A stretch of 64,000 bases of DNA, from positions 2,976,001-3,040,000 of the forward strand of contig NZ_CP143889.1 in the NCBI RefSeq assembly GCF_036417355.1. Reading direction: 5' to 3'. The notes below the pieces were generated by a model that was not told where the DNA came from, ran no database searches, and saw nothing but the letters and a program-made list of their open reading frames with translations. The translations under genes and the position numbers were made by a program. This stretch comes from Akkermansia sp. RCC_12PD (GTDB taxonomy: Bacteria; Verrucomicrobiota; Verrucomicrobiia; Verrucomicrobiales; Akkermansiaceae). This document shows positions 6,154 to 47,127 of the stretch, piece by piece. How positions within the stretch are numbered: position 1 is the first letter of the stretch; every line of letters starts with the position of its first letter.

Positions 6154-6939
6154 ATGAAAAAATCCTTATTTATTGCAGCCACTCTGCTTTATTCCGGGCT
6201 GGACGTACAGGCCGCCACTCTTAAATATTATTATGATTTCAACAAACTCAACGGCAACCTGTCTTCCCTGAACGACAACAATCTGGCGGGAGAAACGGCA
6301 GGCGCCGCCGTATTCAGCGGCGGTGGCTGGATCAATTATGCGGACGGTTATGAAGGAAAGGGATACGACAGCCGTTCGGACGGTGGCCAGCTTACATTGG
6401 GGTCCGCCGACAACGGCCTGGGCCTGAATACGGAGGATGGATTCAGCCTTTCCATTGCCGTCAAGGACTTCTCCCCCGGCCATTCCCAATCCACCGCTCT
6501 TTGGAAAGGGCTGCTGACCTTCACTTCCGGAAGCGGGCAAACCATGTATCTTCAAAAGGACTCCGGAGACGCCTCCAGCGCCGGAGAATGGGCCGCCTAT
6601 TGCGGCGGCAACGTGGGCAATTGGGCCAACATGACCATCTCCAGGGATTCCTTCTCCAATATCATCATTACCTTCCAGGCTGGAGAGCTGAACATTTATC
6701 TGGATGGACAGCGCAGGATCAGCGCTTCCGGCGTCAATTTCACCGGGGATGCCCAATCTCTGAAACTGGCTTCCACGGCCGATACTATCATGGATGACCT
6801 CCAGTTGTATTCCGGCGTCTTGAATCACGATGAAATTGCGGCCCTGGCCGCCAATCCAGCCCTCCCCGTACCGGAACCAGCAACGGCCGCCTTAGGCATG
6901 CTGGGATTGGCTGCCCTGAGCTGCCGCCGCAGAGCCTGA
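6154..6939 (+). CDS. PEP-CTERM surface protein with LamG-like domain
   Basis: A 261-residue exported protein. Residues 1-20 form a signal peptide (MKKSLFIAATLL... ending VQA). The body (about 22-235) has the pattern of a concanavalin/LamG-like jelly-roll: phrases such as LNTEDGFSLSIAVKDF, NIYLDGQRRISASG and MDDLQLYSGVLNHDEI match the usual strands and the closing motif. The C-terminus is a PEP-CTERM sorting signal: VPEPATAAL, a short hydrophobic helix, then CRRRA. By family knowledge an exosortase recognises this tag. Glycan or matrix binding is inferred from the fold. A hairpin terminator follows. Confidence 0.85.
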   Translation: MKKSLFIAATLLYSGLDVQAATLKYYYDFNKLNGNLSSLNDNNLAGETAGAAVFSGGGWINYADGYEGKGYDSRSDGGQLTLGSADNGLGLNTEDGFSLSIAVKDFSPGHSQSTALWKGLLTFTSGSGQTMYLQKDSGDASSAGEWAAYCGGNVGNWANMTISRDSFSNIIITFQAGELNIYLDGQRRISASGVNFTGDAQSLKLASTADTIMDDLQLYSGVLNHDEIAALAANPALPVPEPATAALGMLGLAALSCRRRA

Positions 6940-7032: not shown

Positions 7033-10000
7033 ATGAAAATTATCTCGCTTCTGTTCGGAATCTTCGCCGGCTGCATTTCTGTTCCCTTTGCCTGTGCCGC
7101 CGACTATACTTGGAACGGCGGCAACGCTTCCTGGACGGACTCCGGAGCGTGGCTGCTGGACGGCAGCTCCGCGGATTGGATTAACGGCAACACCGCCCTG
7201 TTCCGAACCGGCTCCACCCTTACCGTGGGCAGCGGCATCAGCGCCTCCGGCCTCCTTTACGAGGGAGCGGCCGTCACGCTGAACGGAGGTTCCCTGACTC
7301 TGGCCGGGAGCGCTTCCGGCAGCAACGGAGGTTCCGCCACCCTCTCCGGAACGGCGCTGACCCTGAACTCCACCAATCAGGAAGATGGGTGGACTGTCCG
7401 GGATACCAGCCTGAGCGGTTCCTCCACGCTCACCAAAACGGGAAACGGAACGGTTGCCTTATCCGGAACGCATACGGCGAACGGAGCCTGGAACATCAAT
7501 GAAGGAACCCTCGTATTTACAGGTACACGGGATATTACGGGGGGGGGGCAGATCAACATTGCCTCCGGCGCGGTTCTGGATGCCAGCGGAGGACGCCTGT
7601 TCCATGCCGCCAACTACGCATCCAATTGGGAGCAGCCTACCATCACCTTGAACGGCGGAACACTTAAGCTGAACCAGTTCGGTTATAATTCCGCCTCACT
7701 GGGATGTTTGCAGAATAATTTTTACGCCCTTAAATTCTCCTCCGGCACCACCAGCCGCGTCGTTATCTCCCAGGGCTACGAGTCCGGAGGCACGGGCAGC
7801 CGGGGTATTTACATTGCCGGCTGGGGCACCACCGCCGTGATTGAACTGGGAGCCAACCAGACATTTACCTGGAGTTCTTCCAACGGACAGAATTTTGATT
7901 CCATCGTCTGCGAGTCCGGCGCGGGAAGTGCCCTGCAATTGGACGTCGGGGAAAATTCCGTGTTCAATTTCGACCAGAAGTTCGCCAACAAGAACACGGC
8001 CAACGAATACGGGGCCCCGACCACCTCCAATTTTTCCGGGTTGAGTCTGATTAAATCCGGCAGCGGGGAACTGGTTATCAAACGGGCCAATACGATTTCC
8101 TCCGGCCGCGTGGTACGGGTGGATGCAGGCAAACTGACGCTTGACGTGGACAACGCCTTCGGCACGGGCTCCGGCCTGGGCGGCGTGAACATCGCCTCTG
8201 GAGCCCTGCTTTCCATGAACGGGCACACGCTGAACAATACCATTGAGGTGGTTTCCGGAGCCACGCTGGACATGGGGGGCAGTTCCTACGCCAGCCTAGT
8301 CAACTGGCATGAAGGGGGCATTCTCCTGAATACGGAGAACAACAAGGGCACGCTCAACATCATGACCCACACGGAACTGGAATTGGGAGCCAAGTCCTGG
8401 GCCGGGAGCGTGGTCACGGACACGGATACCGTCTTTACGCTGACCACGAACCAGAATCTGGGCGCACTGGGAGCCGCCGTCAACTGCTGGATAGGAGGCA
8501 GGGGAAACAACAACACGCGTCAAAGCATTTCCTTCACGGGAGGACACGGCATCAACATTGACAATTACGGGGCCAAATGGGCGGTCATTCTTTCGGAAAA
8601 CGTCACCTTCCAGAATACCGGTGATCTGACTTTCTCCAACAATGCGGCGGATATGACGAATACGGACGCCCTTTACGGAGCAGGCGCCATTGCGGCCAAT
8701 GACACGGTTACGTTCAGTGGCACGGGAGCCCTTACGTTCAGCGGCAATAGCGTCCGGGGAGATTCCGCCGCATCCGGAGGGGCCATTTATGCTTCCGGGG
8801 GAGCTCTGTTCACCAATACCGGCGCTATCAGCTTTGCGGGCAACACCGCCATGACGCACGGAGGCGCCATCCATGCGGGAGGCACCACGGGCAGCCTGGC
8901 ATTTTCCAATATTGCGGAAGATATTTCCTTCTCCGGCAATACGGCGGGAGAAAACGGAGGCGCCATCAACAACGATTTTGAGACCGTGGAATGGTCCGGC
9001 GTCGGCAACGTTTCCTTCACTTCCAACAACGCGGAGACGGGCGCCGGAGGCGCGATCTGGACCGGCATGGACATGACGGTGGATACGGCCGTCTCCTTCA
9101 CCGTAACGGACAACCAGGCAGGGGACGGAGGTGGAGGCGGAATTTACGCAGACGGCAGCGTTTCCTTCTCCAGCGTGGACAGCATCATCTTCTCAGGTAA
9201 CCATGCCTCCACCTACGGAGGGGCCATTTCCGCCTATAACGCCATCACCGTTTCCGATTCCGGAAAGGTCACCTTTTCCGGCAATACCGCCGGCTATGAC
9301 GGGGGAGCCCTGGATGCCTGCAACGTCACCATTTCCGGAAATACGGATACGGTCCTGTTCGAGAACAATAGCGCGGAGGACAACGGAGGAGCCGTCAACC
9401 TGCAAAACGGCGGTACCCTGACACTGGCGGCGGACCATGCGGACATCGTTTTCCGCGGCAATACGGCCCAGAATGGAAGCGTACGCAATGCGATTCACTT
9501 TAACGACAGCGCCACAGCCTCCTTCAATGCCGGAGCCGGGCACCGGATTCTTTTTGAAGACGGCATCAGCTCACTGGAAGATTCCGTTGTAGAAATCAAT
9601 GTGAACGAAGAAGCGGGGGCCGAAGGCGATGTTTCCATGTCCGGAGTGGACAGCCAGTCCGGCATCAAGGCCAATACCACGGTACACGGAGGCACATTCT
9701 CCGTCATCAACGGGGCTTCCTACGGCTACCAGTCTTCCGACTGGATCGCGGAAGATTCGCGCACTTCCTTCACGGTCAACGGCGGAACGCTTCACATAGG
9801 CGAACAATCCTCCTTGAATGCGGCGGACGTGAGCTTTGCGGACGGCACGCGGTTTTCCATCACGGGAACCGGCAGCCTGAACGCGGACACGCTGACCCTG
9901 GGCAACGACGTTTCCATCATCGGCGCGGGGACAGGCAGCTTCTCCATTACCGCCGCCGCCATTGATATGTCCAACGGCATCACGATTGACCTTTCACAGG

Positions 10001-10395
10001 GTGCACAGGTAGGACTCGTCCTGCATGCGGATATGCTGACCCTGGGAGGCAGCCTGGCTCTTGATGACAACGCTGTGGATTACACCGCCCGCCCATGGCA
10101 GACCGACCAGTCCTGGCTGGTCATGGATTCGGACGGCGTCACACGGACAGACGGTGAATTTTCCGGGGCTCTTTCCGGCCTCTCCAACTCCTCCACGGTC
10201 ACGGTAGGCGATCTGGGGCTGGAAGGCTATGACCCCTCACTGGAACTGGGCCGCTGGGAGCTGCGCTGGGATGAAAACCACGCCCTGTACCTGGACTGGA
10301 TTTCCACCGGACTCAGCGTCCCGGAACCTTCAACCGCCATCCTGCTTCTTCTGGCGGCCGGGAGCATGCTTGCCAGAAGAAAGCGTTTCCATTAA
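7033..10395 (+). CDS. Large PEP-CTERM protein with autotransporter-type beta strands and Pmp-like GGAI/FxxN repeats
   Basis: About 1120 residues. The chosen start (MKIISLLFGIFAGC) gives a clean signal peptide ending near ACAADYTW; an upstream in-frame ATG at 6985 lies inside a terminator hairpin. The N-terminal half holds autotransporter-associated beta-strand repeats (YTWNGGNASWTDSGAW; LTKTGNGTVALSGTHTANG; LIKSGSGELVI). The second half (about 8620-9420) has repeated FSGN/FTSN and GGAI/GGAL units typical of a right-handed beta-helix and of chlamydial polymorphic membrane proteins. Instead of a beta-barrel it ends with VPEPSTAILLLLAAGSMLARRKR, a PEP-CTERM anchor. A surface adhesin or structural role is inferred. 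Confidence 0.88.
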   Translation: MKIISLLFGIFAGCISVPFACAADYTWNGGNASWTDSGAWLLDGSSADWINGNTALFRTGSTLTVGSGISASGLLYEGAAVTLNGGSLTLAGSASGSNGGSATLSGTALTLNSTNQEDGWTVRDTSLSGSSTLTKTGNGTVALSGTHTANGAWNINEGTLVFTGTRDITGGGQINIASGAVLDASGGRLFHAANYASNWEQPTITLNGGTLKLNQFGYNSASLGCLQNNFYALKFSSGTTSRVVISQGYESGGTGSRGIYIAGWGTTAVIELGANQTFTWSSSNGQNFDSIVCESGAGSALQLDVGENSVFNFDQKFANKNTANEYGAPTTSNFSGLSLIKSGSGELVIKRANTISSGRVVRVDAGKLTLDVDNAFGTGSGLGGVNIASGALLSMNGHTLNNTIEVVSGATLDMGGSSYASLVNWHEGGILLNTENNKGTLNIMTHTELELGAKSWAGSVVTDTDTVFTLTTNQNLGALGAAVNCWIGGRGNNNTRQSISFTGGHGINIDNYGAKWAVILSENVTFQNTGDLTFSNNAADMTNTDALYGAGAIAANDTVTFSGTGALTFSGNSVRGDSAASGGAIYASGGALFTNTGAISFAGNTAMTHGGAIHAGGTTGSLAFSNIAEDISFSGNTAGENGGAINNDFETVEWSGVGNVSFTSNNAETGAGGAIWTGMDMTVDTAVSFTVTDNQAGDGGGGGIYADGSVSFSSVDSIIFSGNHASTYGGAISAYNAITVSDSGKVTFSGNTAGYDGGALDACNVTISGNTDTVLFENNSAEDNGGAVNLQNGGTLTLAADHADIVFRGNTAQNGSVRNAIHFNDSATASFNAGAGHRILFEDGISSLEDSVVEINVNEEAGAEGDVSMSGVDSQSGIKANTTVHGGTFSVINGASYGYQSSDWIAEDSRTSFTVNGGTLHIGEQSSLNAADVSFADGTRFSITGTGSLNADTLTLGNDVSIIGAGTGSFSITAAAIDMSNGITIDLSQGAQVGLVLHADMLTLGGSLALDDNAVDYTARPWQTDQSWLVMDSDGVTRTDGEFSGALSGLSNSSTVTVGDLGLEGYDPSLELGRWELRWDENHALYLDWISTGLSVPEPSTAILLLLAAGSMLARRKRFH

Positions 10396-10416: not shown

Positions 10417-11859
10417 ATGAACAGCATCATTAAACCGACATTGTGCGCCCTGGCCCTGGGCGTTTGCGGCGCGGCCCCTCTTTGCGCGGCGTCAGCCACG
10501 GCCTCCTGCGAGCAGACACACTCCGTCCTGTACGCGGGGGGCGTCAGCCAGGCCATCATGAAAATCAAGATAACCGCCCCGGAAACCAGCCAGATATTGA
10601 AAGGCATGACCTTTTCCATGGCGGGAACCACCTCCGTTGCCGACATTGCCAAGGCGCAGATATTCGCATCCGGAACCACTCCGTACTTTTCCCCGAATTC
10701 GGGCCAGGCCAACCGCCGCGCCGTCCCCATCCTCAACACCATTTCCAAGGGCGCGAAAACCCTCCAGTTTGAAGGAAGCCATCCCCTCTCCCCCGGAGAC
10801 AACTATTTCTGGCTGTGCGTGGACCTTATCCCCAGGGCGCGCGGCCTGAACAAGGTGGACGCCGCCTGTACCGGAGTCGCCCTGCTGGAAGACTCCAACA
10901 TCGCCGTTTCCAATCCCTCCCCGGAAGGCTGCGCCCAGGTTTACCCCTACCAGTTCCGGGTGGTTCCCTACTACCGCCACACCAACCTGATGCAATGGAA
11001 CCGCGACCAATTGAATGCCCAGCACTTCAAGTCCTTCACGGACCTTATTTACTTTAATGTGGGCTGTGACACTGACGGGAACCTGACTGGACAGAACAAC
11101 GAACAATTCCTGAACGGACTGGACAAGCTCAAGAACCTGCGCGGCACTGGGGGCAGCAAGATCATTCTGGGTGTAGCCCACTGCGATGCGGGCATGACGG
11201 CCATAACGGCCGATCCGGAAAAACGGATCAAATTCGCCCGTCAGCTGGTTTCCTTTGCCAAGGAAAAGGGCTTTGACGGCATTGACATCGATTGGGAATA
11301 TCCCGACAACGATACCCAATGGTATTATTTCTCCCTGTTCCTGGGGGAAGTCCGTTCCGCCATGGGTGCCAACGGCATGTCCCTGAGTTCCGCCATCAAT
11401 CCGTATTACCTGGCGCCTACCTCGGAAATGATGGACCTGCTGGACTTCGTCAACGTCATGAGCTATGACCGTGCCGGCCAGCATTCCACCTATCCGGACA
11501 TGGTGACGGACGTGAACACCATGCGGAATAAAAACGTGCCGGACTGCAAAATCGTGATGGGACTGCCGTTTTACACGAATGAAACGCGCTCCAACCGCAA
11601 CTGGGACGCCCAGAAAGGCTATTCCACCGTCATCCAGCTCTATCCCAACATAGCGCCCGGAACAGATACCTGCATCATCGACGGGCAGCAGCACTACTTC
11701 AACGGCATCACCACGATCAAGAAAAAATGCCAATACGTAAAAAACCAGAAGCTGGGCGGCGTGATGATCTGGTGTTATGACGGCGATCTGCTGCTGACGC
11801 ACGTCAAATCCCTGGCCAAGGCCATGTTCGGCGTCATCAAGCAACAGGCTGTCCGCTAA
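10417..11859 (+). CDS. Secreted glycoside hydrolase family 18 protein
   Basis: 480 residues with a signal peptide (to about residue 28, ending LCAASA). Residues about 30-185 form an N-terminal all-beta domain resembling the accessory domain found before BNR sialidases and other glycosidases. Residues about 190-470 are a GH18 TIM barrel: the catalytic DxxDxDxE motif is intact as FDGIDIDWEYP, followed by VNVMSYDRAG and, near the end, GGVMIWCYDGD. GH18 enzymes cleave beta-1,4-N-acetylglucosamine linkages (chitinase or endo-beta-N-acetylglucosaminidase). With the PEP-CTERM proteins upstream and sialic-acid genes downstream, action on host mucin glycans is inferred. The start lies 21 bp after the previous stop. 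Confidence 0.88.
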   Translation: MNSIIKPTLCALALGVCGAAPLCAASATASCEQTHSVLYAGGVSQAIMKIKITAPETSQILKGMTFSMAGTTSVADIAKAQIFASGTTPYFSPNSGQANRRAVPILNTISKGAKTLQFEGSHPLSPGDNYFWLCVDLIPRARGLNKVDAACTGVALLEDSNIAVSNPSPEGCAQVYPYQFRVVPYYRHTNLMQWNRDQLNAQHFKSFTDLIYFNVGCDTDGNLTGQNNEQFLNGLDKLKNLRGTGGSKIILGVAHCDAGMTAITADPEKRIKFARQLVSFAKEKGFDGIDIDWEYPDNDTQWYYFSLFLGEVRSAMGANGMSLSSAINPYYLAPTSEMMDLLDFVNVMSYDRAGQHSTYPDMVTDVNTMRNKNVPDCKIVMGLPFYTNETRSNRNWDAQKGYSTVIQLYPNIAPGTDTCIIDGQQHYFNGITTIKKKCQYVKNQKLGGVMIWCYDGDLLLTHVKSLAKAMFGVIKQQAVR

Positions 11860-11881: not shown

Positions 11882-11917
11882 AAACGGGCGTTTTTTTCGG
11901 GGAAACGCCCGTTTTTT
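11882..11917 (+). terminator. Terminator after the GH18 gene
   Basis: 12-bp perfect stem AAACGGGCGTTT (11882-11893) with AAACGCCCGTTT (11903-11914), followed by further T residues. Confidence 0.9.
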
Positions 11918-12004: not shown

Positions 12005-12922
12005 ATGAATACCTCACTGAAACTTCACGGCCTGGTGGCCGCCGTACATACACCGTTCAAGGCAGATGGTTCTTTGAACGCTTCCAGTGTAGACGCCCAG
12101 GCCAAACTGCTTGCCTCCCAGGGCATCAAGCTCGCTTTCATTACCGGCAGCACCGGTGAGTCCTCCTCCATGCAGCTTGCGGAACGCAAGGAAATCTATT
12201 CCGCATGGAAGGAAGCCTCCGCCAAGCATGGTGTTCAGGTGATCGCCCATACCGGGTCCAACAGCGTCTGGGACGCCAGGGAACTGGCCGCTTTCGCCCA
12301 GGAATGCGGATTTGTAGCCACCAGCTCCCTGGCCCCCTCCTACTACAAACCCGCCACGGTTCAGCGCCTGGTGGAATGCTGCGCCTTTGCCGCTTCCGGC
12401 GCTCCGGACCTGCCTTATTACTATTATGATATTCCCGTGCTGACGGGCGTACGCTTCAATCCGGTCGATTTCATCAAGCTGGCCAAGGAGCAGATTCCGA
12501 ATTTTGCAGGCATCAAATTCACCAATCCGGACCTGGCCCTGTACCAGACCACCCTGAATTACGACGAAAACGTGGATATTCCATGGGGAGTGGACGAATG
12601 GTTCACGGGGGCCCTGTCCGTCGGCGCCAAGGGAGCGGTAGGCAGTTCCTTCAACTTTGCTCCGGCCCTGTACCAAAACCTGATCAAGGCTTTTGAAAAG
12701 GGAGACATGGAAACGGCAAAGGACTGCCAGTGGAAGTCCGTGCAAATGATCAACATCCTGGCCTCCAAGGGCTATATGGGATGCGCCAAGGCCCTGATGG
12801 GCTGGCTGGGCGTGGACCTGGGTCCGGCGCGGCTGCCGCAAGGCAATCCGACCGCGGACCAGCTCAAGGAACTCCGCTCCGAGCTGGAAGCCATCGGCTT
12901 CTTCCAGTGGGCCATGAACTGA
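12005..12922 (+). CDS. nanA: N-acetylneuraminate lyase
   Basis: 305 residues of the DHDPS/NAL TIM-barrel family. It cleaves N-acetylneuraminate to N-acetylmannosamine and pyruvate in the cytoplasm. Visible hallmarks are the substrate loop FITGSTGESSSM near residues 44-56, the YYYYDIPVLTG segment with the catalytic Tyr, and the Schiff-base Lys in FAGIKFTNPDL. NAL rather than DHDPS is favoured by GSTGE, the YYDIP phrase and the epimerase gene 13 bp downstream. The pair forms a sialic-acid catabolic operon, consistent with growth on mucin glycans. Confidence 0.93.
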   Translation: MNTSLKLHGLVAAVHTPFKADGSLNASSVDAQAKLLASQGIKLAFITGSTGESSSMQLAERKEIYSAWKEASAKHGVQVIAHTGSNSVWDARELAAFAQECGFVATSSLAPSYYKPATVQRLVECCAFAASGAPDLPYYYYDIPVLTGVRFNPVDFIKLAKEQIPNFAGIKFTNPDLALYQTTLNYDENVDIPWGVDEWFTGALSVGAKGAVGSSFNFAPALYQNLIKAFEKGDMETAKDCQWKSVQMINILASKGYMGCAKALMGWLGVDLGPARLPQGNPTADQLKELRSELEAIGFFQWAMN

Positions 12923-12935
12923 ACTGCCTTTTCTT

Positions 12936-14117
12936 ATGGCTGCAACGCTTGACATGCCCGCACTGGGCGCATTCTACCGCCGCCAGCTTTTGGAAGACGT
13001 GCTTCCCTTCTGGTTCCCCCGCGCCTGCGACGAGAAGAACGGCGGCCTTTACCACTGCTTTGACGCGGACGGTGCCCTGGTAGACACGGACAAGTCCGTC
13101 TGGGCCCAGGGCCGCATGGCCTGGATGCTGCTGACCATGTACAACAGCGTGGAGAAAAATCCGGACTGGCTCAAGTGGGCGGAAAGCGCCCTGACCTTCC
13201 TGTCCACCAAATGCGTGGACCCTTCCGACGGCCGCATGTACTTCCATGTGGCGGCGGACGGTACTCCCATCCGCAAGCGCCGCTACGCGTACAGCGAATC
13301 CTTTGCCGCCATCGCCTTTGCGGCCCATGCGAAAGCCGTGGACAGCGAGGAATCCGCCAAAGCGGCCCGGCACTGGTTCGACATTTTCACGGACATGTGT
13401 TTCACTCCCGGCAAAATGGCTCCAAAATTCACCGGGAACCGCCCCACGACCGGGCTGGGAACGCGCATGATTACGTTGGCCACCGCCCAGGAAATGCGCA
13501 AATACCTGGGCGACGAGGACGGATTCTACACCGGGTGGATCGACCGCTGCATCCACGACCTGCGCACCCTGTTCATGAAGCCGGACATCAAGGCCGTGAT
13601 GGAAGTGGTGGGAACGGACGGCTCCATCATTGACCACTTCGACGAGCGTACATTGAACCCCGGCCATACCATCGAGGGAGGCTGGTTCGTTCTGGAGGAA
13701 GCCCGCTACCGCGGCCATGATCCGGAATTGATCAAAGTGGGCTGCGACATGATCGACTGGGCCTTTGAACGAGGCTGGGACCGGGAAAACGGCGGCCTGC
13801 TCTACTACACGGACGTGTACGGCAAGCCCGTTCAGGAATACTGGCACAACATGAAGTTCTGGTGGCCGCACGACGAAGCGCTCATCGCCATGACGCTCGC
13901 CTACAAGCTTACCGGAGAAGAGCGCTACGCCATCCGGCACAACATGGTGCACAACTGGGCTTTCTCCCATTTCCAGGACGTGCAGCACGGCGACTGGTTC
14001 GGCTATCTGAACAAGGACGGCTCCAAGGCAAACACCCTTAAGGGCAGTCTCTGGAAGTCCTTCTTCCACCATCCCCGCGCCATGTGGTGCTGCGCTCACT
14101 ACTGCGGCGCCATTTGA
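12936..14117 (+). CDS. N-acylglucosamine 2-epimerase (AGE/RnBP family)
   Basis: 393 residues, the standard AGE length, an (alpha/alpha)6 barrel. The enzyme interconverts N-acetylmannosamine and N-acetylglucosamine, the step after NanA. Matches to the family include the N-terminal YRRQLLEDVLPFW, GGLYHCFD, KSVWAQGRMAWM, NPGHTIEGGWFVLEEA and the C-terminal KFWWPHDEALIA, with the conserved catalytic His residues. It starts 13 bp after nanA and is followed by a strong terminator, so the two genes form one transcript. Confidence 0.93.
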   Translation: MAATLDMPALGAFYRRQLLEDVLPFWFPRACDEKNGGLYHCFDADGALVDTDKSVWAQGRMAWMLLTMYNSVEKNPDWLKWAESALTFLSTKCVDPSDGRMYFHVAADGTPIRKRRYAYSESFAAIAFAAHAKAVDSEESAKAARHWFDIFTDMCFTPGKMAPKFTGNRPTTGLGTRMITLATAQEMRKYLGDEDGFYTGWIDRCIHDLRTLFMKPDIKAVMEVVGTDGSIIDHFDERTLNPGHTIEGGWFVLEEARYRGHDPELIKVGCDMIDWAFERGWDRENGGLLYYTDVYGKPVQEYWHNMKFWWPHDEALIAMTLAYKLTGEERYAIRHNMVHNWAFSHFQDVQHGDWFGYLNKDGSKANTLKGSLWKSFFHHPRAMWCCAHYCGAI

Positions 14118-27071: not shown

Positions 27072-27345
27072 TTTTATTTTCTGTTGTGGATTCTTTAAGG
27101 GCTAGCTGGAGCTGGCGGCGGATGTACAGGAATACCTCCCTGTACGCATCGCGCCTCATGGCGTCCAGGGGGTCGTAATTCCCCGGACTGCCTTGAAAAA
27201 CGGGTAAATCAGTCTGGAAGCGGGCTTCCAGAAAGGAGAGGGCGTCGCGGCCGTCCGGCGTGTCAAACACGCGGAGGAGCTGCCGCCTTTTAAGCCGGGC
27301 CTCCTTCAGGGAGGCCTCCTGCTGCAAGATGGTATCCTGGTTCAT
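27064..27345 (-). CDS. Small phage-relic protein of unknown function
   Basis: 93 residues, helical and charged (QQEASLKEARLKRRQLLRVF, EARFQTDLPVFQGSPGNYDPLDAMRR...). It lies between portal and scaffold genes and overlaps both (4 bp with the portal end, 8 bp with the scaffold start), a typical phage packing of genes. No family recognised; a head-assembly accessory role is inferred only from position. Confidence 0.6.
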   Translation of the reverse strand: MNQDTILQQEASLKEARLKRRQLLRVFDTPDGRDALSFLEARFQTDLPVFQGSPGNYDPLDAMRRDAYREVFLYIRRQLQLALKESTTENKND

Positions 27346-28979
27346 TCCTGAATGGCTGTTAATTGGCTGAGCAACGGATCAAGGGAGGCGTAAGGGTCTT
27401 CCCCCCCGGCAGGTTCCTGCTCTCCGGACTGCTGCAACGCCTGGCGCTGGCGCCGCGCGGCCTGAACGTCCGCCCAGGGTTTCAGCATGCTTTCCGGCGC
27501 ACCTTCCACCCGTGCGGACAGGCGGAAGCAGGCATCCCAGTCCACATGGTCCGCCAGTTCCGGAGCCGCCTGCATCATCATGTTCAAGCGCTGCAGGCTG
27601 CGGTCCATGCCTTCGTTCTGCAAACGCCGCAGCACCAGGGCTATTTTGGACTGGTATACCACCCTGGGTTCCCCCACCCGGACGGTGCCGTCCCGCCCCT
27701 CCCTTAGAACAGCGCGGGGCGGCCTAGGGAATTTGCCCATGCGGAACAGGAGGGAAAAGATGCGCGCCATGGTGGAATACAAGTCGCTCACGAACAGGGT
27801 GAAAGACGGGGAAAACATGAGCACGCGCTCGTTTTCCCGGGCCATCACTTCCGTGGCTGTCATGCTGCCGTGATGGCCGCCCCACAGTTCCAGCATGGGC
27901 AGATAGTAGGCCCGCTTGATGGCCTCCTGCTTCTGGGCCAGGCGGTCCATCCCTATGTCGTACCTGCCCTGCGTGGCCCATTCCCGCGGCAGATGGAGGG
28001 AGGCGGCCTCCGGCGTAATCACCGTTCTGCCGCCGGCCCTCAGGTCCACCTCCCCGATCTGACTGGCCAGTTCCAGAATGCGGGGGAAGGCGGCTACCTC
28101 TCCCAGCGTGTCCAGAATACGGTTCAGGAACTGCGCCTGCTGGATGGCGGGAAAAACCAGCCTGCCGGGAGCCAACCCGTACGGGCCGTTTCCCCATTTC
28201 AGGAACCGGGTGACCAGGTACGGAAATTCCATGTATCCCCCTTCCTCCACGATCACCTGGTCGTCCAGAGACAGGTAAACACTTTCAAATGGCATGTGGG
28301 ACGCCTGCACCCTGCGACGGCTGCGCCGGGTGCGCGGACGCACCACGTGAAGAAACCTCAGGGAGGTGGAATACGGATTGCCGCCGCGTTCCAGCACTTC
28401 CCGCGCCCGAGGGCCGAGAGCCTTGAGCCCGAACATGCTGCGTGCCTGATGGGCCGTGAACGTGAATTCCCTGACGTAGGTGTCCACCCTGCCCTCCGCA
28501 TTCTCCGCGCAGGCGAATTGCCCGCAGGGGATGTTCGTAAACAGCAGCCGTCCGTCCACGGACGTTCCGGTAAAGAGGCTGCCCGTTCCCAGAGCCACGC
28601 GGTCCAGGAAGCATTCGTGAATCTCCGTGTAGAAATTGGATACGGAGAGTTCCTTCAAGGCGACTTCCGAGCACTGGTTGTACCACGCCTCCGCCTCGTC
28701 CCCTCCCTGGTCATCCGGAGCGGACCACTTGAACCACACGTCATGGCTGGGGGTGATGTAGGACATATGGCCGCTGGCGAGCTTCTGGCAGGCCTCCACG
28801 GCGGTCGTGTCCGTCATGCGGTCCATGGCGTCCCGGCTGGGGAGGGAAACCTCCCCCTCCCGGTTCAGGCGCCTGGGCAGTACATAGTCCCGGAGCCGGT
28901 CCCACCAGGTCTCCCAGGGCGCGCGCTGGGCGGCCAGAGCCTTATACACGGAAGTCAGTTCCGCAATTCGTTCTTCCAT
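27342..28979 (-). CDS. Phage portal (head-tail connector) protein, T7 type
   Basis: 545 residues, close to the 536 of T7 gp8. The N-terminus (RIAELTSVYKALAAQRAPWETWWDRLRDYVLPRR) and DTTAVEACQKLASGHMSYITPSHDVWFKW follow the head-to-tail connecting protein family (PF12236-like). Later features: FLNRILDTLGEVAAFPRILE, WGGHHGSMTATEVMARENERVLMFSPSF with the TATE(V/I) motif, and a Gln-rich C-terminus. In podoviruses it forms the dodecameric portal through which DNA is packaged. The gene is intact, which is notable because no large terminase or major capsid gene is seen nearby. Confidence 0.85.
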   Translation of the reverse strand: MEERIAELTSVYKALAAQRAPWETWWDRLRDYVLPRRLNREGEVSLPSRDAMDRMTDTTAVEACQKLASGHMSYITPSHDVWFKWSAPDDQGGDEAEAWYNQCSEVALKELSVSNFYTEIHECFLDRVALGTGSLFTGTSVDGRLLFTNIPCGQFACAENAEGRVDTYVREFTFTAHQARSMFGLKALGPRAREVLERGGNPYSTSLRFLHVVRPRTRRSRRRVQASHMPFESVYLSLDDQVIVEEGGYMEFPYLVTRFLKWGNGPYGLAPGRLVFPAIQQAQFLNRILDTLGEVAAFPRILELASQIGEVDLRAGGRTVITPEAASLHLPREWATQGRYDIGMDRLAQKQEAIKRAYYLPMLELWGGHHGSMTATEVMARENERVLMFSPSFTLFVSDLYSTMARIFSLLFRMGKFPRPPRAVLREGRDGTVRVGEPRVVYQSKIALVLRRLQNEGMDRSLQRLNMMMQAAPELADHVDWDACFRLSARVEGAPESMLKPWADVQAARRQRQALQQSGEQEPAGGEDPYASLDPLLSQLTAIQE

Positions 28980-32272: not shown

Positions 32273-33292
32273 TTATTTGCCAATAAACGGAGGATAACAA
32301 TCCATATCTCCGCGCAGATGGCGTGCCAGCAACAGCGCCTGAATATGGATCAGCAGTCCCAGCGTGGTTTTCTCCTGGAGGAAGGGATGAACCAGAACGG
32401 TTTTCTTGCGTTCCTGCCATGCGGTCAGAACTTTTTTACGGGAATCCTCCTTCAAAAAGACGGCTCCGGATTCTTCCCTGTCAAAGTCGTCTGAAGATAT
32501 CTGCTTGCGGTTAATCAGAGTCAAGGCCAGACGGTCCGCCAAAGGAGCCCGGAATTCTTCCATAAGGTCCAATGCCATGCCGGGGCGTCCCGGACGATCG
32601 CGGTGCAGAAACCCTGCAGCCGCGTCAATCCCGGAGCTTTCCAAGGCGGACCTGGCATCATGGCACAACAAACTGTACAAAAAGGAAAGCAACGCGTTGA
32701 AACAGTCCTTTGGCGGTCGTCTGTTGCGGCCTTCAAATACCAGTTCCGGATCTTCCGTGCGCTGGCAGTGGGACAGGCAGGAAAAATACGTTTCCGCGGC
32801 GGAGCCTTCAATTCCCCGCAGAATGTCTCCGGAAACGCACCCGCGGACCATGCGGCAAAAAGCAGCCAGCCGGTTCACTTCTTCCGAAAGATTTTTCCCG
32901 TAAGTCCTCTGTGCCCTCAACAGCAAGTTGCGGCAATTGGCGATTTTTGCGGCAATCATTTCCCGCGCCACTACAACCCATTTTGCTTCTTCATCGGCCC
33001 AGCGGTACTGTTCCCGGCGCAACAGGATGTTTCCTTTCATGAATCCCTGCACGCCAGCCAGGAATTTACCGTAAGGATTGCAGAACGACAGTGTAATTCC
33101 TTTTTCCGCACAGGCCCCCATCAAATACGGAGACACGCCGATATCCCACCCCAGCGTGACGATTCCTTCCAGATTATGAAGAGGGACCCGCAGCAGGCAC
33201 TGACCTTCCGAATTTACTTTTACAGTATCTCCGTCCTTGGACAGCCAGCATCCTTCCAGCGTCACGAACAATGTATTTAAATGCTTCTTCAT
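32273..33292 (-). CDS. cas1: CRISPR-associated integrase Cas1, type I-C
   Basis: 339 residues. N-terminal beta domain with LEGIVTLGWDIGVSPYLMGACAEKGITLSF; C-terminal helical domain with ALLSFLYSLLCHDARSALESSGID, then the catalytic His/Asp region GFLHRDRPGRPGMALDLMEEFRAP, all typical. Cas1 catalyses spacer integration with Cas2. It overlaps cas4 by 4 bp at its start. Composition is closer to the chromosomal genes than that of cas3-cas7. Confidence 0.96.
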   Translation of the reverse strand: MKKHLNTLFVTLEGCWLSKDGDTVKVNSEGQCLLRVPLHNLEGIVTLGWDIGVSPYLMGACAEKGITLSFCNPYGKFLAGVQGFMKGNILLRREQYRWADEEAKWVVVAREMIAAKIANCRNLLLRAQRTYGKNLSEEVNRLAAFCRMVRGCVSGDILRGIEGSAAETYFSCLSHCQRTEDPELVFEGRNRRPPKDCFNALLSFLYSLLCHDARSALESSGIDAAAGFLHRDRPGRPGMALDLMEEFRAPLADRLALTLINRKQISSDDFDREESGAVFLKEDSRKKVLTAWQERKKTVLVHPFLQEKTTLGLLIHIQALLLARHLRGDMDCYPPFIGK

Positions 33293-33957
33293 AAATCATC
33301 AGCCTCCCACATATTCAGACTTTCCTCAAATACTTCGTCCACACGGTCCTTCATTCCCAGCCTGCGTTCCCGGCATACGTCCGGAAGGCAGTCGTTGACC
33401 AGAGAACAGGATTTACAGGCTTTGGAATATTGGGGCAAAGGCGTTACCACTCCGATCAGGATATCCCTGGTTTCCCGAATAATCCGAACCGTCAGGGAAC
33501 GCAATTCATCATCAAACGCCACCTCATGCCTCCTCTGGGTTTTCCCGTAAAATAAAAACCCCGCAGGAATGGCCGTTCCGAACATTTCCTCCAGGCACAA
33601 GGCCTGGGCGCATACCTGCACTTCGTCCGCGCGATGCGGTTTTGGCTTGCCTACCTTGTATTCCACCGGAGTCATGGATATGGGAACGCCGCCTTTTTCA
33701 GCATAAACAGCCTCCACAACATCCGCAATGCCGTGAATTCCCCATTGGAGGGAGGAAACATGCAGGGAACGCAGAATTTTCTTTCGTCCGCGGTTTTCCG
33801 TCATGCCGGAATCCGCCCGTTCATGAAATACATTCCCTTCCGCCGTAAACTGGTTGTCAGCCCACACACATTCCAGATGAATCAGCGCGCACTGCCTGGG
33901 ACAGTACAGATAATGCTGCAATGCCGCCAGGGGAACGGAAAAGAGAGAAGGTAGCAT
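33289..33957 (-). CDS. cas4: CRISPR-associated exonuclease Cas4, type I-C
   Basis: 222 residues. Fe-S cluster Cys residues are visible at the N-terminus (HYLYCPRQCALIHLE) and C-terminus (ACKSCSLVNDCLP); the RecB-type nuclease motifs read GIADVVEAVY, MTPVEYKVGK and the QVCAQALCLEE helix. In type I-C, Cas4 trims prespacers and checks the PAM before Cas1-Cas2 integrates them. First gene of the leftward cas4-cas1-cas2 operon, divergent from cas3. Confidence 0.95.
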   Translation of the reverse strand: MLPSLFSVPLAALQHYLYCPRQCALIHLECVWADNQFTAEGNVFHERADSGMTENRGRKKILRSLHVSSLQWGIHGIADVVEAVYAEKGGVPISMTPVEYKVGKPKPHRADEVQVCAQALCLEEMFGTAIPAGFLFYGKTQRRHEVAFDDELRSLTVRIIRETRDILIGVVTPLPQYSKACKSCSLVNDCLPDVCRERRLGMKDRVDEVFEESLNMWEADDL

Positions 33958-34018
33958 CCGATAAATTTGTTTGAAAATGTTACTATTGCATAAAATAATA
34001 AAAAAATCAATTCATACA

Positions 34019-34046
34019 TTGAAAATCCCACGGAAAAGACTATTCT
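34019..34046 (+). promoter_or_regulatory. Candidate promoter of the cas3 operon
   Basis: TTGAAA (34019-34024), 16-nt spacing, TATTCT (34041-34046), about 36 bp before the cas3 ATG, in the AT-rich 125-bp gap between cas4 and cas3. A purine-rich GGAAAGGA stretch sits about 10 nt before the ATG. Read by eye only. Confidence 0.35.
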
Positions 34047-34082
34047 GATTTTCCGTACCCAACTGGAAAGGATACATGGCAC

Positions 34083-36545
34083 ATGCTAGCACGGCCCGGA
34101 CAGACAATAGAACAACACACACATGAGTGTACTGTAGGAGCTTCACTCAATGCCTCAAGAATAGGTTTGGCAAGGACGGCTGCTCTGATTGGAGCGTTCC
34201 ATGATTTTGGAAAATGGAGTGATGCCTTTTATGACTATATGGAAGCTATTGCCTCGGGGAAAAATCGTACTCGGAAGGGCTCCGTCGATCATTCTACGGC
34301 AGGAGCACAACATTTATGGCGTTATTTCACAGATGGACGGCAAGCAATAGAGCCCTTTGAAAGATATTGGGTCCAAATAATAGCCCTCTGCTGTCTTTCC
34401 CATCATGAAGGGTGCCTGATTGATAACTTAAAGACAGAGGGAACAAATCATTTCAAGGCACGCATTACCAAAGACGTCCGGCAATCCTATTATGAAGAAG
34501 CCTGGAAAAATATACCGGCAGAAGAAAAGGCCCGGATGCAGGAATTGCTTTCAGACCCGGCATTAAGGGAAGAATGGCGTTCGTTTGACGCCCTACTCCG
34601 GAAAGGTGAAAAAAAACTTTCCTCCAGGGAAATAAAATACCGATATGGCCTTTTATCTCGCTTTTTACTGAGTTGTCTTGTAGATGCCGATCATTCCAGT
34701 GCGGGGGGCGAACCGATTGAAGCCGTACCTACTCCTCCATGGGATAAAATGTTGGCAAATCTGGACAGATATCTGGCGCGCCTTGCCTCACGAGGAATGA
34801 TTGATGATTTGCGGGCAGAAATTTCCCAACGCAGTTTCACCGCCGCTGACCGTCCTCAAGGCAAGTTTTTGATGACACTCCCCACAGGAGCCGGAAAAAC
34901 TTTGGCAAGCCTGAGATTTGCATTGACTCATGCCCTGAAGCACCAGCTGGACCGGCTAATTTATGTCATTCCCTACACTTCTATTATTGATCAGAATGCA
35001 GCCACTATCCGCGAGGCATTGGGAAATGAGTTTGCCGACCTTATTCTGGTTCATCATGCCAATGTGCTGGTGGATCCAAAAAACGATCTATCTGAAGAAG
35101 AACTCTACCAGGAGGAAAAACGCCGTTATAAAGCAGAATGTACGTGGAAATCTCCCGTCATCCTGACAACGGCAGTACAGTTTCTACAGACTCTGTTTTC
35201 CAAGGGTAGCAGCTATGTGCGCCGTATGAACAGTTTGGCCAGTTCCGTGATCATTTTTGATGAAGTACAAGCACTTCCGTTAAAATCGACCTACCTGTTG
35301 ACGTCTGCATTAAATTTCATGGAAGAAGTCATGGGATGCAGTCTTGTTTTATGCACGGCCACGCAACCTATATGGAGCCAATTGGAAGACGAAAACTGGC
35401 ACTTAAGATTAAATCCGGATCCTCATATCATTCCCGACTATCAACGGTACTTTGAATTGTTTTATTCCAACCGCCGGATCGCTGTGAATATAATTGAAGA
35501 ATCCGAAAAATGGAAGCTGCAGCAATTTGCCGATTTTGCTCTAAAACAAGCTCAAAGCGGGAGAAATACCTTAATGGTTGTTAATACCAAAACATTTGCC
35601 CGCAATTTATATGAGGCGTGTGGAGACGTACCGGACGTGCAAATCTACCATTTGAGTACGAACATGATTCCACAGGATCGCTCAAATATCATCACCAATA
35701 GAATAGACAAGCAATCTCTTAAAACGGCTAAAAGGATAAAAAAGCCCGTTTTGTGCTTTAGTACGCAATTGATTGAAGCGGGGGTGGATGTAGACTTTGA
35801 TGTAGTTATTCGCAGTGCAGCCGGGTTGGATTCCCTTGTCCAAGCCGGAGGCCGTTGCAACAGAGATGCTCAACTGGATAAAGGAGAAATCTTTGTCGTT
35901 TTCCCATCTGAGAAATTGGAAAATATAAACAAACTGGAAGAAATCAACATAGGCAAGACTCTTTTAAAAACGATTCTCCCTGATGTGCAAGGCAATACCA
36001 ACTTACTCATGGAAGAGAACGCCTTGAACTCATTTTATCAATATTATTATTCCGAAAATAAGAGCAGGCTGTATTATCCGTTGAAAACCAACAGTTACAC
36101 TATGATGGACCTTCTTTCGACGAACAGTACCATCAAAATGGAGGCTCAACGGATCCAGACCGATTACTCCTTTATGCTTCTGCACCAGTCCTTCCAGGAG
36201 GCAGCAAAAAATTATCAAGTTCTGGAAGGTTTATCAACCCCCGTCATTGTAAGTAAAGGAAAAGGTGCAGAAATCACTGAGCATCTGCGGGCCTTGGCAC
36301 ATCCCCACTCCAAGGAAGAATGGGAAGCAGTCCGGAAGTTGCTCAAGGAAGCCATGGAATATACTCTCTCCTTAAACTATACAGAGAAGGATATCAATGC
36401 CATGCTTGCAAGCGGCATCATTGCCTTATTGCCCACGGATTATCCTGTCTATATACTTTCAAAACATCATTATGATGAAAAAACTGGTTTTTCATGGTCA
36501 AAGTCGGAACCATATGCTAAAAATCCGAACGGCCTTACCGTTTAA
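34083..36545 (+). CDS. cas3: CRISPR-associated helicase-nuclease Cas3, type I-C
   Basis: 820 residues. The N-terminal HD nuclease has LIGAFHDFGKWSDAF and, further on, SHHEG. The SF2 helicase has Walker A in MTLPTGAGKTLAS, Walker B as IIFDEVQALP, ATQPIWSQ, and motif VI as SLVQAGGRCNRD. Cas3 is recruited by the target-bound Cascade to unwind and degrade foreign DNA. First gene of a rightward operon with cas5c 12 bp downstream. AT-richer than the chromosomal genes and cas1, which suggests a separate source. Confidence 0.95.
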   Translation: MLARPGQTIEQHTHECTVGASLNASRIGLARTAALIGAFHDFGKWSDAFYDYMEAIASGKNRTRKGSVDHSTAGAQHLWRYFTDGRQAIEPFERYWVQIIALCCLSHHEGCLIDNLKTEGTNHFKARITKDVRQSYYEEAWKNIPAEEKARMQELLSDPALREEWRSFDALLRKGEKKLSSREIKYRYGLLSRFLLSCLVDADHSSAGGEPIEAVPTPPWDKMLANLDRYLARLASRGMIDDLRAEISQRSFTAADRPQGKFLMTLPTGAGKTLASLRFALTHALKHQLDRLIYVIPYTSIIDQNAATIREALGNEFADLILVHHANVLVDPKNDLSEEELYQEEKRRYKAECTWKSPVILTTAVQFLQTLFSKGSSYVRRMNSLASSVIIFDEVQALPLKSTYLLTSALNFMEEVMGCSLVLCTATQPIWSQLEDENWHLRLNPDPHIIPDYQRYFELFYSNRRIAVNIIEESEKWKLQQFADFALKQAQSGRNTLMVVNTKTFARNLYEACGDVPDVQIYHLSTNMIPQDRSNIITNRIDKQSLKTAKRIKKPVLCFSTQLIEAGVDVDFDVVIRSAAGLDSLVQAGGRCNRDAQLDKGEIFVVFPSEKLENINKLEEINIGKTLLKTILPDVQGNTNLLMEENALNSFYQYYYSENKSRLYYPLKTNSYTMMDLLSTNSTIKMEAQRIQTDYSFMLLHQSFQEAAKNYQVLEGLSTPVIVSKGKGAEITEHLRALAHPHSKEEWEAVRKLLKEAMEYTLSLNYTEKDINAMLASGIIALLPTDYPVYILSKHHYDEKTGFSWSKSEPYAKNPNGLTV

Positions 36546-36557
36546 CTTACCATTATC

Positions 36558-37253
36558 ATGGGAAATAACATAGAATATCTGGTATCAGGGAAATTAGCCT
36601 TATTCACTGATCCCCTTACCCGCATGGGCGGTGAAAAATGCTCTTACCATATCCCCACCTATGAAGCATTAAAAGGGGTGACCAAATCCGTCTACTGGAA
36701 ACCCACCATTAATTGGGTCATTGATGAAGTACGCGTCATGAATCCTGTCCGTACTTTCGCAAAAAACATGAAACTGATCAAGTATCATGAAAGCGGCGCC
36801 GAATTATCCGTATATACCTATTTAACAGACGTTTCCTATCAGGTACGGGCACATTACGAGTGGAATTTGCTTCGCGATGATATGAAGGCGGACCGAATTG
36901 AAGGCAAGCATTCCGCCATTATCCAGCGCACGCTGGAAAAGGGCGGAAGACGCGATATCTGCCTGGGTGCGCGCGAATGCCAGGCTTATGTGGAACCGTG
37001 CCGGTTTGGAGAAGGCCCGGGAGCGTATGATGATATTCCGGAATTAGCCTTTGGCGTTATGTTCCATGGATTTGATTATCCGGATGAAACAGGAAGAGAA
37101 GAATTGGGAGTACGGTTCTGGAAACCTGTCATGAAGAATGGGATTGTTAAATTCATTCGTCCCGAAGAGTGCAAAATAACCAGAGCTGTCCGCAAGATGA
37201 AAGCTAACCCTCCACGATCATGTGGTGTAAATGATTTATCTTTAGAAGAATAG
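36558..37253 (+). CDS. cas5c: Cas5c (Cas5d), crRNA-processing Cascade subunit
   Basis: 231 residues. N-terminal KLALFTDPLTRMGGEKCSY and SYHIPTYEALKG match the I-C Cas5 family, as do VYWKPTINWVIDEVRVMNPVRT and LGARECQAYVEPC. In type I-C, which lacks Cas6, this protein cuts the repeat RNA and caps the 5' handle. It must handle the repeats of both arrays if both are used, since no cas6 is present. It is 14 bp before cas8c. Confidence 0.94.
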   Translation: MGNNIEYLVSGKLALFTDPLTRMGGEKCSYHIPTYEALKGVTKSVYWKPTINWVIDEVRVMNPVRTFAKNMKLIKYHESGAELSVYTYLTDVSYQVRAHYEWNLLRDDMKADRIEGKHSAIIQRTLEKGGRRDICLGARECQAYVEPCRFGEGPGAYDDIPELAFGVMFHGFDYPDETGREELGVRFWKPVMKNGIVKFIRPEECKITRAVRKMKANPPRSCGVNDLSLEE

Positions 37254-37267
37254 AAAGTGAGGTAAAC

Positions 37268-39193
37268 ATGAACTGGATGGAAGCTTTATATAAGACATAT
37301 GAAGATAATGCCCAACGGACAGGCTTGAATTCTTCGGAAGAGAAAAATTCAAAAAACCGAACAATCACCCCGTTATTTCCGCTTTATCATGGCAGCCAAA
37401 ATGCCCAGGTAACAGTTGTACTGGATGGTTCCGGTGCATTCAGACGAGCGGAGGTAGTCCCTGCCGGGAACCAGCAGACAATCATTCCCGTTACTGAAAA
37501 GTCGGGAGGCAGAACCAGCGGATTGTGTCCCCACCCCCTTTGCGACAAACTGCAATATGTGGCGGGAGATTTCACTAAATGGACAGGTAATACAAAAACC
37601 GGGTACAAAGAATATCTCAACCAACTGGAGCGTTGGAAAGATTTTGATCCTTCCAATGCAACGCTTTCTTCCATCTTTTTGTATGTATCCAAAGGCTGTC
37701 TTTTGGAAGACCTCGTCAAATCAGGAGTTCTTCCCGTGAATGAAGCTTCCGGTACCTTGATGAAAAAATGGATGGGAGAAAAAAATGACGCACCGGAGAT
37801 TTATGCGGCTCTCGGCGTCGTTGGCATGGATGCCATCCTGATCAGATGGCGTGTGGAAATTCCCGGAAACCTTATCCCGGATGTATGGAAAAACAAGGAA
37901 ATGTGGGATTCCTGGATCAGATTTCAAGAGTCACAGGAACAAAATACAGGTCTTTGCTATGTAACAGGTGAAATAACCAATTTGGCAATACAACATCCAG
38001 CCCGGATCAGAAACGCTGGAGACGGAGCCAAGATCATCTCTTCCAATGATTCTTCCGGGTTTACGTTCAGAGGCAAATTTGATGATTCAACCGAGGTTTG
38101 CGGAGTTGGAAGAAAAGTCTCCCAGAAAGCTCACAGTGCGTTGAGATGGCTTATTTCCAACCAGGGATGGAGGGATGATTCCCAGGCGATCGTAGCTTGG
38201 TCATCCAACAGTTTTTTGATACCGAATCCGTTAACCGACACTGAAGGGCTGCTGGATTTGGACCCTGATGAAGAACATGAAACTGTCCCGTATACGGCTG
38301 AAGAAACGGGACGGAAAATTAGAGAAAAAATCTCCGGTTACAAAGCGGAAGTGGCCAACACCAGCCACATTTTTATTATGGGCCTGGATTCAGCCACACC
38401 AGGGCGGCTCTCCATAACCTTCTTCAATGAGATGGATTCTGTGGAATACTGGAACAACATTGAACACTGGCATACCGAATGTGTGTGGTGGCAATGGAAT
38501 AACAAAAACAAATTGTGGTACGTTGGAGCACCCTCTCCCCGAACTATCGCGGAAGTGGCTTATGGAAAATCTTCAGATGAAAAATTGCGCAGGCAAACAG
38601 TAGCACGCTTACTTCCCTGTATTATTGAAAAACGCCCCGTACCCTCTGATCTTGTGGAAGCTTGCATCCATCGGGCGTGTAACAGAAACGGCCTGGAATC
38701 TTGGGAATGGAATGTTGCCGTCAATACAGCGTGCGCTCTATTTCGATACCGATTTAACTCAACTAAAAAACAATACCATTATACCATGAGTCTGGATAAA
38801 ACCATTACAGAACGGGGATATTTATACGGAAGGCTGCTCGCCGTAGCGGAATTGCTGGAAAAAACCGCCCAGAAAACTTCCTCCGACACGGAACGTCCCA
38901 CGAATGCGGAAAAACTGATGCAGCGCTTCAGCATTCACCCCCATTCAACGTGGGAAATACTGCGCAAAGCATTGGACCCCTATCTTCAAATTCTGACCAA
39001 AAATGAACCTGGATTAAAATTCTACTATGACAGGGAATTAGCAAGTATCCATGCCCTTTTCGATCGAAACGACTTCATCGACGACAGCAAGGTGTCAGGA
39101 GAATTTCTTCTTGGATACTACTGTCAAAAATCAGAAATGTTCCCTAAAAAATCTTCTGAAAAAGAAAAGGAAAATTCCCAACCTAAAGAATAA
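37268..39193 (+). CDS. cas8c: Cas8c (Csd1), large Cascade subunit of type I-C
   Basis: 641 residues. Family features: PLYHGSQNAQVTVVLDGSG, SGLCPHPLCDKLQYVAGD, LCYVTGEITNLAIQHPARIRNAGDGAKIISSNDSS and VGRKVSQKAHSALRWLI. Cas8c recognises the PAM. The C-terminal 135 residues (from an internal Met at 38786) correspond to the part known in other I-C systems to be made separately as the small subunit Cas11c. Stop is 5 bp before cas7c. Confidence 0.94.
   Translation: MNWMEALYKTYEDNAQRTGLNSSEEKNSKNRTITPLFPLYHGSQNAQVTVVLDGSGAFRRAEVVPAGNQQTIIPVTEKSGGRTSGLCPHPLCDKLQYVAGDFTKWTGNTKTGYKEYLNQLERWKDFDPSNATLSSIFLYVSKGCLLEDLVKSGVLPVNEASGTLMKKWMGEKNDAPEIYAALGVVGMDAILIRWRVEIPGNLIPDVWKNKEMWDSWIRFQESQEQNTGLCYVTGEITNLAIQHPARIRNAGDGAKIISSNDSSGFTFRGKFDDSTEVCGVGRKVSQKAHSALRWLISNQGWRDDSQAIVAWSSNSFLIPNPLTDTEGLLDLDPDEEHETVPYTAEETGRKIREKISGYKAEVANTSHIFIMGLDSATPGRLSITFFNEMDSVEYWNNIEHWHTECVWWQWNNKNKLWYVGAPSPRTIAEVAYGKSSDEKLRRQTVARLLPCIIEKRPVPSDLVEACIHRACNRNGLESWEWNVAVNTACALFRYRFNSTKKQYHYTMSLDKTITERGYLYGRLLAVAELLEKTAQKTSSDTERPTNAEKLMQRFSIHPHSTWEILRKALDPYLQILTKNEPGLKFYYDRELASIHALFDRNDFIDDSKVSGEFLLGYYCQKSEMFPKKSSEKEKENSQPKE
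38786..39193 (+). CDS. Predicted internal translation product Cas11c within cas8c
   Basis: An in-frame ATG (MSLDKTITERGYLYGRLLAVAELLEK) opens a 135-residue, mostly helical segment at the 3' end of cas8c. Established knowledge: I-C systems translate Cas11c from an internal start at this place. No strong Shine-Dalgarno box is visible upstream (AACAATACCATTATACC), so the start is a prediction. Confidence 0.5.
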   Translation: MSLDKTITERGYLYGRLLAVAELLEKTAQKTSSDTERPTNAEKLMQRFSIHPHSTWEILRKALDPYLQILTKNEPGLKFYYDRELASIHALFDRNDFIDDSKVSGEFLLGYYCQKSEMFPKKSSEKEKENSQPKE

Positions 39194-39198
39194 ACATT

Positions 39199-42705: not shown

Positions 42706-42736
42706 AAGGCCGTTCCGCCATGAGCGGAACGGCCTT
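42706..42736 (-). terminator. Terminator of glyS
   Basis: 13-bp stem AAGGCCGTTCCGC (42706-42718) with GCGGAACGGCCTT (42724-42736); on the minus strand TCTGTTTTCC follows. Confidence 0.85.
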
Positions 42737-42773
42737 GGAGTATTTACAATATTTAATTCCGCTAAGGAACATA

Positions 42774-44351: not shown

Positions 44352-44432
44352 GATTGAATATAGGTTGGGTTGGCTGTGCGGGGGTATTGATGACCTCAAA
44401 CGGAGGGCAGTGAAAGCAAAAAGCGTGTCTTC

Positions 44433-45095: not shown

Positions 45096-45138
45096 CGCGC
45101 CTGTGTACTCAAGATTGGTCTCTCTGTAAATGCCGGAT

Positions 45139-45918: not shown

Positions 45919-45930
45919 GAGAAGACCGGG

Positions 45931-47100: not shown

Positions 47101-47127
47101 GATGTTTCCTTTCTTGACGGCAGAGGC

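Follow-up and report, generated by a model that had tools for sequence, protein, structure and literature searches.

The ladder-like repeat fold of the protein described here is best known from the surface adhesins of chlamydiae, the polymorphic membrane proteins (Pmps), and the C-terminal region of such a passenger is thought to initiate helix folding while the protein is exported through the barrel. A prediction-based study of Pmps found that their tetrapeptide motifs are buried and that the loops are the parts thought to bind; it gave a rung length of at least 27 residues and found, in all 123 Pmps examined, an aspartate of rung 0 at the junction between the repeats and the middle region that seeds an asparagine ladder (PMC10715098). 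The middle region of Pmps has been described as bearing, at its C-terminal end, a cap made of two long antiparallel strands. A Pmp-like autotransporter has already been reported in A. glycaniphila (PMC11166332). PEP-CTERM proteins, the other class to which the protein relates, number 23 in A. muciniphila, where they were more abundant in intracellular fractions than in those of the outer membrane (PMC4960237).

We have found that P0001, encoded on the plus strand at 7033..10395 of the window (the whole 64,000-nucleotide stretch of Akkermansia sp. RCC_12PD DNA that was analysed), is a Pmp-type beta-helix protein with a PEP-CTERM tail. Its open reading frame is intact, running from an ATG at 7033 to a stop that ends at 10395 and encoding 1120 aa, and 74-93% orthologues are present in 8 further genomes. 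A probable Sec signal peptide, MKIISLLFGIFAGCISVPFACAA (7033..7101), was read by eye from its basic start, hydrophobic core and small cleavage-site residues, and is followed by an N-terminal beta-strand-repeat region (residues 25-500; 7105..8532) in which residues 133-161 give a single PATR match (PF12951, E 7e-6 and 26.4 bits, slightly below the cut-off of 27; TIGR02601, at its cut-off). The Pmp repeats, about 10 rungs, occupy residues 520-835 (8590..9537) as judged from the two Pmp models, motif statistics and AlphaFold. An earlier note on this DNA had claimed Pmp-like repeats here, and the profile search that it proposed yielded eight stretches with each model, PF02415 from Pfam (68.2 bits, E 1.8e-19; cut-off 20.6) and TIGR01376 from NCBIfam (90.5 bits, E 2e-26; cut-off 15), the strongest matches in the genome. 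The many GGAI/GGAL and FxxN units that it saw in the second half of the protein are likewise borne out: residues 520-850 hold 7 paired FxxN...GGAx units, whereas 20,000 shuffles averaged 0.04 and none exceeded 3. The FxxN motifs are spaced 28-35 residues apart, near the published rung length, with a single gap of 58 residues that is occupied by a variant, VTDN.

The C-terminus of P0001, VPEPSTAILLLLAAGSMLARRKRFH, carries a PEP motif, a transmembrane helix (a helix is also present in the structural model) and a basic cluster (10315..10386). Both PEP-CTERM models score it above their cut-offs (PF07589, 22.7 bits against 20.7; TIGR02595, 26.9 bits against 16), it is the top PEP-CTERM match in the genome (30.9 bits), and it is kept in all eight orthologues. 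A scan of P0001 for the autotransporter barrel PF03797 gave no match. The claim that the protein ends in a PEP-CTERM signal and not in a barrel therefore stands, and for this reason we do not class P0001 as a Pmp autotransporter. The genome encodes a single exosortase (PF09721, 173.6 bits, E 6.2e-51; TIGR02602, 152.4 bits against a cut-off of 105.55) in which the C/R/H motifs are present (GCSG, NGVR and WHDWSG), and it contains 28 PEP-CTERM matches, that of the LamG gene adjacent to P0001 included.

The earlier note had also asked whether the repeat matches might be no better than those of generic beta-helix proteins. In the host genome, a single contig of 3.17 Mb, 11 of the 16 barrel autotransporters and 27 of the 28 PEP-CTERM proteins that pass their cut-off are without a PF02415 match, and the whole-protein PF02415 score is 68 bits for P0001 versus 12-31 bits for the genome's other Pmp-repeat proteins. 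We conclude that the repeats of P0001 are more than a generic beta-helix. PF02415 matches eight frames in the genome, one of them by chance; this frame, of 642 aa, is a transaminase-like ORF and was rejected as a Pmp protein. Among 14 control genomes TIGR01376 matched in one, and at a strict cut it matched in 25 of 289 Verrucomicrobiota genomes. The proposal that the adhesin domain is shared through the Chlamydiae-Verrucomicrobia superphylum fares poorly, both on this sparse count and because PF02415 proteins lie mostly outside Chlamydia (443 of 1448 are chlamydial; PMC11166332); Pmp motifs occur, moreover, in archaea and trichomonads (PMC10715098).

Searching named genomes with P0001 returned nothing beyond close orthologues and matches over part of the N-terminus. 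Three proteins of the genus Akkermansia (L185:2681-6001, L186:2196-5309 and L187:419-5029) carry many Pmp repeats together with PEP-CTERM-like tails, and the combination is thus not unique to the P0001 gene. The gene was not found in genome G160 (2,664,102 bases) and is present in larger Akkermansia genomes, a distribution that may bear on differences between species. As a lead only, we note that Akkermansia phylogroups differ in their adherence to epithelial cells, with AmIV binding more (PMC8262928). We also observed Pmp repeats in other settings. A 562-aa protein of the same genome (L051:831-2516) has them with neither barrel nor PEP-CTERM, and a Pmp-repeat protein of another verrucomicrobial family (L199:569-3946) ends in a hydrophobic segment and basic tail, LLFGCLSILGAVILLLIRKCFKRDGRRVS, that has no PEP motif and is possibly another sorting signal. 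Two ORFs of 3400 and 4341 aa in other Verrucomicrobiota (L193:4702-14901 and L203:2570-15592) hold dozens of Pmp-like units.

Relatives with barrels are encoded in the same genome as P0001. Frames of 967, 1763, 1365 and 1023 aa have PF02415 over its cut-off and a PF03797 barrel, and a 1317-aa frame has the barrel with PF02415 just below cut-off. The presence of these Pmp-repeat proteins with real barrels speaks against PEP-CTERM as this lineage's alternative to the barrel; what is supported of the interpretation first offered is the occurrence of Pmp-type repeats on a barrel-less PEP-CTERM protein, and neither descent within the superphylum nor PEP-CTERM as a barrel substitute is supported. 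BLASTP aligned residues 494-1092 of P0001 with the 1317-aa autotransporter (4e-31) and residues 566-1079 with the 1023-aa autotransporter (6e-11), and in each alignment the similarity breaks off shortly ahead of the ends of the two proteins, a PEP tail in P0001 and a linker and barrel in the autotransporter. Judged from these alignments, the homology reaches further than the earlier note had seen, into the region that precedes the autotransporter barrel; the note overlooked the barrel paralogues as well as the GH18 partner gene described below. Its observation, which was correct, was understated.

This region, which resembles the Pmp middle domain (residues ~841/845-1094; 9565..10314), tests kinship better than the repeats do because it is less repetitive. 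On its own (259 aa) it matched the 1317-aa protein by BLASTP at 8e-11. We built profile and profile-profile tests so as to avoid circularity: a profile made from PEP-type middle regions only, run against 1192 ORFs, found besides its own members barrel ORFs only (2.5e-11 to 9.5e-8), and hhalign comparison of the PEP-type middle region with three groups of barrel proteins gave probabilities of 97.6-97.9% over 250-257 columns. The Pmp middle domain PF07548 is matched by 10 of 19 barrel homologues, which carry PF02415 and PF03797; the best of these matches is 1.3e-5, and the cut-off is passed in three genomes once neighbouring in-frame matches are counted. P0001 gave no direct PF07548 match at E 1, and its link to the chlamydial domain thus runs through the barrel relatives.

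At the junction of the repeats with the middle region lies an F-x-D motif (F841 and D843; 9553..9561), both residues of which are invariant in all 27 aligned Akkermansia proteins, PEP-type and barrel-type. On a comparison made among Akkermansia proteins, this motif is likely to be equivalent to the rung-0 aspartate of Pmps. The homology of the middle region and the shared junction together indicate that one genome holds a Pmp-type passenger with two kinds of end, either the barrel or the PEP-CTERM tail. When 31 middle regions were placed in a tree, the PEP-type proteins clustered in one group (100/100); mapped onto this tree, which has no outgroup, the type of anchor switches a single time, on one long branch. 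We note that in one genome (G086, L184:9729-17143) genes for two Pmp autotransporters of the barrel type, which share 60% identity with the 1023-aa autotransporter, lie directly upstream of a locus with genes for LamG-PEP, Pmp-PEP and GH18 proteins.

Structure prediction, which the earlier note had also proposed, gives residues 500-1099 as a confident long beta-helix with a regular strand pattern, the repeat region having pLDDT values mostly above 90. When barrel relatives were included in the AlphaFold alignment, residues 500-1120 reached a mean pLDDT of 91.1 and a pTM of 0.88, with the middle region mostly above 80; a full-length model made without barrel rows is all-beta, with a mean of 72.9 and residues 1005-1073 below 50. 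This gain in confidence is consistent with a shared structure, alignment depth and model length being further differences between the models. The modelled helix ends in two long strands (1071-1079 and 1084-1091), followed by a short linker and a low-confidence helix in the PEP tail, and the strands at residues 1071-1091 appear comparable, in the model, to the published Pmp cap. Searching the PDB by sequence found no relative of P0001, and by fold it found only distant autotransporter passengers, pertactin being the best (E 3.6e-3) and TM values reaching at most 0.41; weak matches to solved structures have likewise been reported for CtPmpE.

Downstream of P0001, after a gap of 21 bp, lies a gene for a secreted GH18 glycosidase with a BNR_assoc_N domain (10417..11859, plus strand; PF00704, 112.8 bits, E 3.5e-32; PF14873, E 2.3e-15). 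Its N-terminus is leader-like and its DxxDxDxE catalytic motif is intact (DGIDIDWE, residues 287-294); its sequence would fit a chitinase or an N-glycan endoglycosidase, and both are candidate activities. Upstream lies a LamG-domain protein that is also a PEP-CTERM protein (6154..6939; PF13385 and PF07589), and downstream of the GH18 gene follow genes of the DHDPS/N-acetylneuraminate-lyase family (12005-12922; PF00701) and the GlcNAc 2-epimerase family (12936-14117; PF07221), which probably serve sialic-acid catabolism. All are on the plus strand, and the five genes stand in this order both in the window and in 8 further genomes. Terminator-like hairpins lie between the LamG gene and P0001 (6971..6996; a consensus match only, of a kind found in total at near-chance numbers) and 3' of the GH18 gene (11882..11914; a 15-pair stem, likewise a consensus match only). 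The short spacing and the flanking hairpins suggest co-transcription, and on this basis the P0001 and GH18 genes probably form a two-gene unit. A GH18 gene adjoins the P0001 orthologue in nine of nine genomes. It is also found directly downstream of the genes for five PEP-tailed homologues at 25-29% identity, all of which pass the PF02415 cut-off; their tails fall slightly below the Pfam PEP-CTERM cut-off and the region preceding the tail differs from that of P0001. The paired GH18 proteins split into two clades, and 15 other GH18 loci have no counterpart of the partner.

Elsewhere in the window we observed a type I-C CRISPR-Cas locus (32273-40020) that looks complete and is low in GC; the minus strand encodes its Cas1 and Cas4, and the plus strand its Cas3, Cas5c, Cas8c and Cas7c. 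A 1171-aa SNF2-type helicase (47918-51433) is DpdE/ZorD-like, far under the curated NCBIfam cut-offs, and is preceded by two ORFs (42720-44357 and 45130-47589) with no match in the libraries scanned. A phage head-tail connector protein on the minus strand (27342-28979; PF12236, E 5e-139) suggests a prophage or its remnant.

On balance, and with confidence only a little above even, we favour the reading that P0001 is an exosortase-sorted, Pmp-like partner of the GH18 enzyme that binds glycans or glycoproteins; its binding, sorting and display are all parts that we infer. On this reading P0001 is an autotransporter-type Pmp passenger, consisting of the repeat beta-helix and the middle region, with a PEP-CTERM tail in the place where its relatives have a linker and barrel. 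It would leave the cytoplasm via Sec, and the exosortase would cleave it at the PEP motif and transfer it to an anchor of lipid or glycan, after which it might reach the outer surface or an extracellular coat; surface display is in our opinion plausible. There the loops of the rungs could bind host glycans or glycoproteins and so deliver substrate to the secreted GH18, and the buried FxxN and GGAx motifs would build the fold and take no part in binding. Adjacency to GH18 alone is not proof of joint function, and 15 other GH18 loci have no such partner. More tentatively, the secretion route may have been exchanged, the same passenger travelling, within one genome, by type V secretion in some paralogues and by the exosortase in others, with the exosortase form serving as a dedicated surface partner of GH18.

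Other readings deserve consideration. PEP-CTERM proteins have been proposed in general to be the proteinaceous component of exopolysaccharide material (PMC1569441), and P0001, a long beta-helix rich in Asn, Ser and Thr in a genome with 28 PEP-CTERM matches, one of them in the adjoining LamG gene, might be a structural protein of an extracellular matrix or capsule layer, to which GH18 is incidental or next to which it acts on glycans of the cell envelope. We regard this as unlikely, since the GH18 neighbour is retained even at 25-29% protein identity and genes of sialic-acid type come next in the locus. It is also rather improbable that P0001 is a tethered or released beta-helix that stays undisplayed, within the periplasm or at the outer membrane's inner face. 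P0001 has no barrel, and the locus encodes no other exporter recognised as acting at the outer membrane; both points would fit such a location, as would the fractionation of A. muciniphila; however, three glucose-exclusive outer-membrane proteins of that species bore PEP-CTERM (PMC4960237), and a passenger-type domain would point to a role outside.

The likeness to Pmps could, in principle, be convergent, with P0001 being a generic repeated beta-helix that has no specific tie to Pmp autotransporters. Short repeats easily arise alike, PF02415 is spread over numerous organisms that are not related (PMC11166332, PMC10715098), and the fold matches in the PDB are distant. Against this, neither the generic autotransporters nor the PEP-CTERM proteins that this genome also encodes show a match and the F-x-D junction is invariant, and the homology of the non-repetitive middle region to barrel-type Pmps strongly disfavours convergence, which we consider very improbable.

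We found no description of Pmp repeats on a PEP-CTERM protein in the literature searched, and annotated proteins of this type may well be present in sequence databases. The conserved pairing of P0001 with a secreted GH18 gives an initial pointer to the function of a beta-helix protein of the PEP-CTERM class, here in a bacterium of the gut mucin layer. Like PEP-CTERM/exosortase substrates (TIGR02595/PF07589; Haft 2006), P0001 has a PEP motif, a transmembrane helix, a basic end, a cognate exosortase in its genome and a probable N-terminal signal peptide (the latter as read by eye), but unlike those described in the papers searched it carries a Pmp-type passenger. The closest solved autotransporter-passenger beta-helices, those of pertactin and antigen 43 (PDB 1dab, 2iou and 7koh), match it weakly (E 3.6e-3 or worse). 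Like the chlamydial Pmps, which combine PF02415, PF07548 and PF03797 and use type V secretion, P0001 alternates FxxN and GGA[ILV] motifs, spaced by some 28-32 residues, and has a long predicted beta-helix, a candidate equivalent of the junction Asp and a distinct region that follows the repeats on their C-terminal side; unlike them, it has a PEP-CTERM tail in place of the beta-barrel, a middle region too divergent for a direct PF07548 match, and an additional PATR-type N-terminal half. With the five Akkermansia Pmp-repeat autotransporters it shares homologous repeats, the middle region and F-x-D, but these end in PF03797 barrels and P0001 does not. The presence in one genome of a barrel or a PEP-CTERM end on the same kind of passenger thus offers a natural comparison, one that bears on the route by which PEP-CTERM proteins get past the outer membrane, on where they finally reside, and on the role of the Pmp middle region.
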